Shown here: in pieces, positions 7,210 to 40,999 of the stretch | Position numbering within the stretch: the stretch's first letter is position 1 | Layout: each line of letters opens with the position of its first letter | From: Actinomycetota bacterium | GTDB lineage: Bacteria; Actinomycetota; Rubrobacteria; Rubrobacterales; Rubrobacteraceae | DNA length: 64,000 nucleotides | NCBI GenBank assembly: GCA_902810695.1 | Contig: CADDYV010000005.1 | Span: 1 to 64,000, forward strand | Direction: 5' to 3' | Position numbers and translations under genes: made by a program | Notes under the pieces: model-generated | Told to the model about the DNA's origin: nothing | The model's database searches: none | What the model saw: the letters and a program-made list of their open reading frames with translations, nothing else

Positions 7210-7236
7210 TGTCACACTGGGCTTCGCGATCTCGTC
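7210..7236 (+). promoter_or_regulatory. ECF41-type promoter
   Basis: TGTCACA at 7210-7216 and CGTC at 7233-7236, 16 bases apart, match the -35 and -10 elements known for ECF41 sigma factors. The site lies 36 bases before the first gene of the operon that encodes an ECF41 sigma factor, so autoregulation is expected. The match is seen in the sequence; activity is inference. Confidence 0.7.
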
Positions 7237-7272: not shown

Positions 7273-7722
7273 ATGATGCGCAGAATAGCCCTGTACGGAA
7301 CGCTTGTGGTGGCGATGGTTACGGTGGGAAACTTGCTGCACGGGATCTCCCATGCCGAACATGAGGTGCCGCTGGCGGCGTGGCAGCAGGCTTACGTGTT
7401 CCTGATTATCTTCCTGGCCCCGATCGTGGCGGCGGTACTACTCTGGAGCCGGTTTCGCCGGGCGGGGGCGTGGCTGCTTCTCGTTTCGATGACGGGGTCT
7501 CTCATCTTCGGGGTCGCCTACCATTTCCTGATCCCCGGCCCGGACAACGCTTTCACCCTGCAACAGGGGGCGTGGCTAACAGCTTTTCAGGCGTCCGCCG
7601 CGCTGCTGGTACTTCTGGACGGTCTTGGATGCCTGACCGGGTTATGGGCTTTGGGCAGGCTTTCGCAGGCTACGGCTGAGTCGAAATCTGCCAGCAGTTT
7701 GAGAAGAACGGAGTTGCGATGA
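7273..7722 (+). CDS. Small integral membrane protein, 149 aa
   Basis: Four hydrophobic segments are visible (about residues 5-23, 42-60, 67-87 and 103-125), with short loops and a Ser/Arg-rich C-terminal tail. It has a conserved-looking HGISHAEHE loop after the first segment. It is the first gene after the ECF41-type promoter, and its stop overlaps the sigma-factor start (ATGA). It could be a membrane partner of the stress response, but no function is known to me. Confidence 0.7.
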   Translation: MMRRIALYGTLVVAMVTVGNLLHGISHAEHEVPLAAWQQAYVFLIIFLAPIVAAVLLWSRFRRAGAWLLLVSMTGSLIFGVAYHFLIPGPDNAFTLQQGAWLTAFQASAALLVLLDGLGCLTGLWALGRLSQATAESKSASSLRRTELR

Positions 7723-8591
7723 TCCGGGACGAGACCTTCGATGAATACCGGCCTCTCTTGTTCTCCATCGCCTACCGGATGCTCGGCAGCGTCCATGACG
7801 CCGAAGACGTGGTACAGGAGGCGTTCGTGCGCTGGCAGAAGGTTGCTGATGAGGAGGTGAGATCCCCTAAGTCTTACCTCTCGTCCGTCGTCACCCGCCT
7901 GTGCATAGACCAGCTACGCTCCGCCCGGATGCGCCGCGAGGAGTACGTGGGTCCGTGGCTGCCGGAGCCGCTGACGGTGGAGCCTGCAACCGATGCGGCG
8001 GTCCTCGACGAAACGCTCTCGATGGCGTTTCTGGTGTTACTGGAGAGCCTCTCTCCGGTAGAACGGGCGGTATTCTTGCTGCGAGAAGTCTTCGATTACG
8101 ACTACGCCGAGATCTCACGGATAGTCGGCAAGAGCGAGGCTAACTGCCGTCAGATCTCACGCCGCGCGAGGCAGGCGGTGGCCGCGCGCCGTCCGCGCTT
8201 CGACCACTCGCCCGAACAGGAAGAGAGGCTGGTAGAGCAGTTTATCGAGACCTGCATGAGCGGCGACATGGAGGGCCTGCTTAAGATGATGTCCGAGGAC
8301 ATAACCCTCTGGACGGACGGCGGCGGCAGGGTGCGCGCCGCGCGCAATCCCATCTATGGCTCCGACAGGGTGGCCCGCTTCCTGTCAGGAATAATTGCCA
8401 GGGCTCCGGAAGGACTCACCATCCGCCGGGCCAGGGTCAACGGCCAGCCCGGTATCGTCAGCTATTACGCCGACGGAAGCCCCCAGGGCGCGGCGACCTT
8501 CGATATATCCGGGGGACGTATCGTGGCCATCCGCCTCGTGGTCAACCCGGAGAAGCTCGGAAACATACCGCCATTACAGGAGGTCGAATGA
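7719..8591 (+). CDS. sigJ: ECF41-group RNA polymerase sigma factor (SigJ-like)
   Basis: 290 aa. Region sigma-2 (about 7-75, with DAEDVVQEAFVRW) and sigma-4 (about 110-165, with LSPVERAVFLLREVFDYDYA and EANCRQISRRARQ) are followed by a SnoaL-like C-terminal domain (about 170-290). Hallmarks of group ECF41 are present: WLPEP at 80-84 in the linker, the DGGG segment in the SnoaL domain, and NPEKL at 276-280 near the end. In this group the fused domain replaces an anti-sigma factor, and the usual target is the neighbouring carboxymuconolactone decarboxylase, oxidoreductase or epimerase gene. Here the next genes are an oxidoreductase and a carboxymuconolactone-decarboxylase-like protein, as expected. 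Confidence 0.92.
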   Translation: MIRDETFDEYRPLLFSIAYRMLGSVHDAEDVVQEAFVRWQKVADEEVRSPKSYLSSVVTRLCIDQLRSARMRREEYVGPWLPEPLTVEPATDAAVLDETLSMAFLVLLESLSPVERAVFLLREVFDYDYAEISRIVGKSEANCRQISRRARQAVAARRPRFDHSPEQEERLVEQFIETCMSGDMEGLLKMMSEDITLWTDGGGRVRAARNPIYGSDRVARFLSGIIARAPEGLTIRRARVNGQPGIVSYYADGSPQGAATFDISGGRIVAIRLVVNPEKLGNIPPLQEVE

Positions 8592-8983
8592 TGATAGTGC
8601 CAAAGCTGGTGCTCGAACCGTTTGTCAACCAGTGGGCGGTTTTGCTTACTACCTACAAACGCGATGGGACTCCGGTGAGTACGCCGGTCAGCATTGTCGT
8701 GGAAGGAGATCGCGCCTTCATCCGGACCTGGGATACGGCGTGGAAGTTCAGGCGCATCCGCAACAACCCGGAGGTCGAAATCGCACCTTCCACCGCGGGA
8801 GGCAAACCCACCGGACCAGCGATCCGGGCTTACGCCAGAGTGCTCACCGGCGAGGAGTCGGCTCGTGCTGGAAGGCTCCTCACCCGCAAATATCCCATCC
8901 TGCACGGTTTCCTCGTCCCGCTGATCCACCGCCTGCGCCGTAACAGGACCGTGCATATCGAGCTGAGGCCGCTCGGCGACTAG
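8588..8983 (+). CDS. PPOX-class (F420/FMN split-barrel) oxidoreductase
   Basis: 131 aa. The pattern NQWAVLLTTYKRDGTPVSTP, then FIRTWDTAWKFRRIRNNPEV and then IELRPL, is the pyridoxamine-phosphate-oxidase-like fold of the F420-dependent group. It binds F420 or a flavin and reduces small organic substrates; the substrate is unknown. Its ATG overlaps the end of the sigma-factor gene, placing it in the ECF41 operon. It corresponds to the oxidoreductase type of ECF41 target. Confidence 0.82.
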   Translation: MMIVPKLVLEPFVNQWAVLLTTYKRDGTPVSTPVSIVVEGDRAFIRTWDTAWKFRRIRNNPEVEIAPSTAGGKPTGPAIRAYARVLTGEESARAGRLLTRKYPILHGFLVPLIHRLRRNRTVHIELRPLGD

Positions 8984-8998
8984 AAGAGGAGGAGTGTC

Positions 8999-9556
8999 GT
9001 GGGAATGAACAAGCTACTTGCCCCCATCAAGGTCTTCGCCAGGACCCGCTACGATCGGGTTCCGGACTCGTTGCGCTTGCTGATCAAGAGGCCCGCTATC
9101 CTGGCGGCCGAAGGGACCTACGAGACCGCACTCCTGGTGAGCGGACGGATGAATGGCCGCATCAAAGCACTCGCTACGCTCAAGGCAAGCTCACTCATCG
9201 GGTGCCCCTTCTGAATGGACATCGGCTCTGCCGTGGGCAGAGAGCTGGGTGTAACCGAAGAGCAGCTACGCGATCTACCGCGCTACCGCGAGAGCGAAGC
9301 GTTCTCGGAGGAGGAGCGGCTGGCGATCTCGCTCGCAGAGGAGATGGTCAAAACGCCTGTGGAGATCCCACCAGAACTCTCGGAGAAGCTGCGCCAGCAC
9401 TTCGATGAAGCTCAACTCGTCGAACTGGCAGCGACCATCGCGCGGGAAAACCACCGGGCTCGCTTCAACCGCGTGTTCGGGGTGCGTCCGGTTGGCTTCT
9501 CCAAAGGAGATTTCTGCGTGTTGCCCGAGAGGCCGAAAGAAGAGATTTCTCGATAA
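8999..9556 (+). CDS. AhpD/carboxymuconolactone-decarboxylase-like protein with in-frame UGA, candidate selenoprotein
   Basis: 185 aa if the TGA at 9212-9214 is read through. The two halves are in the same frame with no indel: the first ends KASSLIGCPF and the second begins MDIGSAVGRELGVTEEQL. In this family the joined site is a CxxC redox motif (CPFC-DIG), so the UGA (codon 72) replaces exactly the second cysteine and gives C69-P-F-U72. A stable hairpin follows at the spacing expected of a bacterial SECIS element. The 113 codons after the TGA keep family sequence, normal codon use and an intact end, which argues against simple decay. It closes the ECF41 operon, where such a protein is the typical target. 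Predicted role: peroxide or thiol redox chemistry. Alternative: a recent nonsense mutation. Start GTG 8999 follows AGGAGGAG; ATG 9005 is possible. Confidence 0.7.
9212..9246 (+). promoter_or_regulatory. UGA codon and SECIS-like hairpin
   Basis: After the TGA at 9212-9214 comes a perfect 7-bp stem, CTCTGCC (9226-9232) with GGCAGAG (9236-9242), closed by a GTG loop. The stem extends by G9225-C9245 and G9224-U9246 across a two-base bulge. The loop starts 18 bases after the UGA and its first base is G; both fit the general bacterial SECIS pattern as I recall it. The fold was read by eye, not computed. Confidence 0.55.
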
Positions 9557-40664: not shown

Positions 40665-40885
40665 GGTGAGGGTTTGGGTTATGCTTGGCTCGAAAAGAAA
40701 AATGGGGCGCGGTGTACAGGGAAGCCGGTGAGAGTCCGGCGCGGTCCCGCCACTGTGAGCGGCGAAGTCGTGTCCCGTCCTGGGGAGCGTTGAGGCTCCC
40801 GGTCACTGGGGTTTGGCTCCGGGAAGGCTGCGGGACATCCGGCGTTCGAGCCGCGAGCCAGGAGACCTGCCGCGTGCCGGGCCCG
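40665..40885 (+). promoter_or_regulatory. Cobalamin (B12) riboswitch
   Basis: The conserved core is clear: GGGAAGCCGGTGAGAGTCCG, CGCGGTCCCGCCACTGTGAG and, at 40858-40872, CAGGAGACCTGCC (the B12 box). The outer limits are approximate. It precedes the B12 importer genes. When cobalamin binds, expression of the importer should fall; the region 40886-40999 would hold the expression platform and the ribosome site. Confidence 0.95.
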
Positions 40886-40999
40886 AATCGGCTCTTCGAG
40901 GAAGGAGTAGGGGATGTCGAGCGCGAGTGGTTCTTAGGCTCCCGGAGATTATCAGGATGGGGGAGTTGGTCTTTCGTGGAGATCCGGGGGTTTATTCTT

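Follow-up and report, generated by a model that had tools for sequence, protein, structure and literature searches.

AhpD-like selenoproteins in which selenocysteine (Sec) takes the second position of a CxxC motif, giving CxxU, are already established (PMC13188914, PMC2398784, PMC1794560), as the original prediction for the locus described here had stated. A separate literature concerns ECF41 sigma factors, which act on neighbouring COE genes (for carboxymuconolactone decarboxylase [CMD], oxidoreductase and epimerase proteins) via promoters of the form TGTCACA-N16-CGTC (PMC3426412), and whose signature motifs include a WLPEP linker and NPDKL (PMC3426412, PMC7730460). In the systems described, a CMD gene stands beside the gene for an ECF41 sigma factor and under an ECF41 promoter (PMC3426412).

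A stretch of 64,000 nucleotides (the window) from a Rubrobacter-like member of the Actinomycetota was analysed. We consider it very likely that the gene at 8999–9556 (forward strand) encodes a selenoprotein whose Sec occupies residue 72 of an AhpD fold, and probable that this gene is a COE-type target of the ECF41 sigma factor encoded with it. The protein resembles the known CxxU selenoproteins (TIGR01926/PF02627/COG2128) in its CMD/AhpD fold and in the placing of its putative Sec at the second CxxC position. It differs from them in that its subfamily scores under the tested NCBIfam cut-offs, belongs to Rubrobacter-like Actinomycetota and has a link to an ECF41 operon. The literature searched does not describe COE proteins as selenoproteins. 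That search, for which most subscription journals were out of reach, found no link between ECF41 and a selenoprotein either. What is new here is the ECF41 regulatory context, AhpD-like CxxU selenoproteins being known already.

The ECF41 operon and its promoter

Four tightly spaced genes on the forward strand (7273–9556) make up the operon, and the selenoprotein gene closes it. The first (7273–7722) encodes a putative membrane protein of 149 aa that gave no family match in profile searches; it is also found in genomes G014 and G015, and in part in G035. The second (7719–8591) encodes a SigJ-like sigma factor of the ECF41 group with a C-terminal SnoaL-like domain, scoring above the SigX4 and SigJ cut-offs (TIGR02957, 384.4 bits, cut-off 323.25; NF007214, 347.8 bits, cut-off 271). 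This protein has a sigma2–sigma4 core, the SnoaL-like extension and the WLPEP linker; its motifs YVGPWLPEP and NPEKL compare with YVGPWLPEP and NPDKL in the ECF41 signature. The third gene (8588–8983) encodes an F420-dependent oxidoreductase of the PPOX class, Rv2061-like (TIGR03666, 135.5 bits, cut-off 84.9). The CMD gene, the ECF41 gene and the promoter are thus all present, as in the COE systems, with the PPOX gene between the sigma and CMD genes. Neither the operon nor its promoter had been part of the original prediction.

An exact match to the ECF41-type promoter consensus lies upstream of the operon at 7210–7236 (forward strand), 36 bases ahead of the operon's first start codon. It is the sole exact match in the 64 kb, where 0.01 would be expected. 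The motif also stands ahead of the operon in other genomes: G027, G028, G036 and G004 have it with either A or G at the seventh base, and G014 and G015 have C in place of the first T. On every orthologous contig of sufficient length, an ECF41 gene adjoins the selenoprotein gene or the Cys form that stands in for it. Several Cys homologues from other families in the phylum (L065, L066, L067, L069, L071) likewise have an ECF41 gene beside them. The presence of the sigma factor in the operon, the exact promoter and the conserved arrangement point to a Sec version of an ECF41 COE target.

The selenoprotein could be expressed independently of the neighbouring sigma factor, with the shared operon incidental, as the link between the two consists of a motif and gene order only. 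We regard this as unlikely: the promoter matches the consensus exactly, promoter and gene order are both conserved, ECF41 genes also adjoin the Cys homologues of other families, and the known ECF41 targets are COE genes (PMC3426412).

Elsewhere in the window, a cobalamin riboswitch (RF00174, 81.9 bits) was detected at 40693–40888 (forward strand).

The interrupted frame and the AhpD-like fold

The frame at 8999–9556, which would encode 185 aa, starts with GTG, ends with TAA (9554–9556) and has a single interruption, TGA at 9212–9214, in the motif GCPFU-MDIG. The GTG lines up with the ATG start of close orthologues and has a ribosome-binding site in common with them. Ordinary annotation would cut the gene short at the UGA. 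The original prediction had described two halves in one frame split by this TGA alone, an intact run of 113 codons after it, and a location at the second redox Cys. All of this was borne out: the frame is otherwise open, 113 sense codons lie beyond the TGA, and the TGA stands where the CxxC site (C69-P-F-U72) of a CMD/AhpD-family protein would have its second Cys, the first being encoded by TGC at 9203–9205 (forward strand). When homologues were aligned at residue 72, they had either UGA or a Cys codon there. The position is invariant, Sec or Cys (shown as C in the alignment) in all aligned members.

Orthologues were found in nine genomes of the class, including its own, at 68–84% identity and in several genera. 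Each of the nine has one UGA, always in the same alignment column, and none has a stop elsewhere in the gene. Pairwise dN/dS against the window gene was 0.11–0.17 after the UGA, as compared with 0.20–0.35 before it; the sequence beyond the UGA is under strong purifying selection at the protein level. Most orthologues and Cys homologues also share a third Cys close to the C-terminus (residue 173). The C-terminus of one orthologue (L022, in G014) diverges after GFSGGG and is without this Cys; a frameshift near its end is possible.

Profile searches placed the read-through protein in the CMD/AhpD-like family (PF02627, 34.3 bits, cut-off 23) and outside the peroxidase-related family TIGR01926 (25.2 bits, cut-off 81.8). 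The best NCBIfam match was NF053654, YciW-related (seleno)protein, over residues 29–162; at 101.9 bits, far under the cut-off of 310, membership of that family was ruled out. Among NCBIfam models the closest belong to (seleno)protein and AhpD-like families, and every one of them scored under cut-off. An AlphaFold2 model built with 22 family members (mean pLDDT 86.6, pTM 0.81) had as its best solved matches PA0269/AhpD of Pseudomonas aeruginosa (2ijc, 7xw1) and the debrominase Bmp8 (6ohi). Both have the same fold as the model, with TM-scores by target length of 0.89–0.93 and about 0.76, respectively. These are Cys enzymes of 19–28% identity, whereas the window protein would carry Sec. By analogy with AhpD, we take Sec72, which would replace the reactive Cys at the second CxxC position, to hold the nucleophile position, and Cys69 to be its resolving partner.

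Translation of two separate proteins, a 71-residue piece and a second product reinitiated at the ATG that directly follows the TGA in the window genome (9215–9217), is very improbable. Of eight distinct orthologues compared, four have CTG as the codon after the UGA, and in the structural model the split would cut the predicted active-site helix (H70–82) of one folded domain.

UGA-bearing relatives extend beyond these orthologues. A second AhpD-like group carries UGA in the motif NGC[VE]FUQDINAAV, followed by a similar hairpin (L028, L029, L030, L033, L035, L038, L043, L044); it had no match in the window's own genome, its members coming from other genomes of the class. In another AhpD-like frame (L040:1501–1953) the UGA is at the second CxxC position and the first Cys is replaced (NQAEYU-GPHH). 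A further relative (L068:1504–1977; GCPWULDFGSAL, 43% identity) belongs to another family of the phylum, in a genome that has selB. A contig search returned only two relatives, one a Sec orthologue (apparently the copy of G035) and the other a distant Cys homologue. In a tree of 32 sequences, the nine Sec orthologues of the window gene formed one group (support 100/99) apart from the Cys relatives, and the Sec labels required three changes in all. Sec in the two AhpD-like groups and in L068 may go back to one origin.

The hairpin and the Sec machinery

Published rules for bSECIS elements call for a loop of 3–9 nt, a stem of 4–16 bp, G in the first two loop positions, a distance of 16–37 nt from the UGA and an MFE of –7.5 or lower (PMC13188914). 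The sequence at 9226–9242 (forward strand), CUCUGCC-GUG-GGCAGAG, fits these rules, with a 7 bp stem, the loop GUG, a distance of 18 nt and a free energy of –10.0 kcal/mol. The 7-bp hairpin with a G-first loop that had been predicted is therefore real, but it does not begin 18 bases after the UGA as claimed: the stem starts at 11 nt and the loop at 18. As a measure of chance, a rule-fitting hairpin at least as stable follows only 40 of the 1412 TGA triplets present in the window, or 2.8%.

The bSECIS-like hairpin is conserved. Of 16 UGA sequences from the two AhpD-like groups, 14 have a hairpin that fits the rules at –8.7 kcal/mol or better, and hairpin cells were 93.8% paired across the 16. 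The fit was poor in two UGA sequences, L025, which needs a 2-nt bulge, and L043, which has one mismatch. One stem pair is altered on both sides between the groups (U-A/U-G to G-C); as it is the only such pair and separates two clades, it may represent a single evolutionary event. No rule-fitting hairpin was found in L027, the Cys homologue tested. The z-score of the 45-nt fold was only –1.84. Synonymous change in the stem was reduced only marginally (p = 0.048) and so was not used as support. Searches of the window with Rfam and ARAGORN gave no SECIS or tRNA match; for tRNA-Sec this is expected, because selC lies elsewhere in the genome.

The genome itself (3.59 Mb, 98% complete) has all four of the genes, selA, selB, selC and selD, that the original prediction had named as a check. 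Those for selA (519.8 bits) and selB (354.6 bits), both over cut-off, are neighbours, and tRNA-Sec (selC; 64.7 bits, over the gathering score) is directly downstream of selB, so that the three form one cluster. The selD gene is on another contig and carries an in-frame UGA of its own (AGUASKFAP), making SelD a second selenoprotein of this genome. Together, the sel genes, the hairpin and the alignment at residue 72 support, at the level of sequence, the predicted read-through with Sec. Neither of the findings named beforehand as speaking against it, a genome lacking selB and selC or relatives with damage elsewhere in the gene, turned up.

Searches of 40 genomes in the class detected selB in 30 of them, selC in 30 and selD in 32. 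Some gaps count against the Sec reading: neither selB nor selC was found in G031 (assembly 79% complete), nor selB in G003 (60% complete), nor selC in G027, which is listed as 96% complete in 220 contigs, so that fragmentation is a presumed cause only. Genome G004, which shares its genus with the Sec-bearing G003, has the Cys form of the gene in an ECF41 neighbourhood (L061/L027). There selB and selC were not found, although G004 has a UGA-containing selD and an AhpD gene of the second group, and the two may simply be missing from the assembly. The presence of selB was dropped as a marker of Sec versus Cys, since most of the Cys-form genomes tested in the phylum also have it.

Reading of the UGA as another amino acid (Trp or Cys), through a code change or suppression, would supply the readthrough that is required anyway. 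We give it almost no credence and consider a reassigned code effectively excluded, as UGA still terminates translation within this very operon: its first and second genes end in genuine TGA codons, in ATGA overlaps with the next start. Most orthologues of the selenoprotein gene themselves end in UGA, residue 72 is Cys in homologues and never Trp, and selA–D and the SECIS-like hairpin are in place. A pseudogene or artefact, in which a nonsense mutation or sequencing error split a CxxC protein, would show a similar one-stop interruption and could not be told apart from the window gene alone, but it has a negligible probability and is effectively excluded, being refuted by the UGA column conserved in nine genomes of several genera and by the strong purifying selection beyond it, with the complete Sec machinery of the genome also against it.

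Proposed mechanism and meaning

For a selenoprotein under ECF41 control, the following sequence of events can be proposed. A signal would free the ECF41 sigma factor from its own SnoaL-like domain, and the freed sigma factor would probably transcribe the operon from the promoter at 7210–7236, as the motif, the gene order and published ECF41 work suggest. SelB with Sec-tRNA, guided by the hairpin 11–28 nt after the UGA, would insert Sec at residue 72. Judged by its family, the protein would work most likely as a selenol/thiol peroxidase or reductase, with Sec72 carrying out peroxide or disulfide chemistry. According to work cited in PMC7730460, SigJ of M. tuberculosis, an ECF41 member, is linked to H2O2 sensitivity, which would fit a redox role.

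As the sigma factor and its putative Sec target would be transcribed together, the selenium supply could decide between active enzyme and a 71-residue stub. That selenium status feeds the ECF41 regulon in this way, making the operon a selenium-gated redox response, is a doubtful extension of the proposal.

Little is understood of what ECF41 COE proteins do. The occurrence of Sec at the second CxxC position in one lineage suggests that this residue is the catalytic nucleophile, and suggests redox chemistry for the COE class of ECF41 targets. The Sec and Cys forms that occur under one sigma system lend themselves to a natural comparison.
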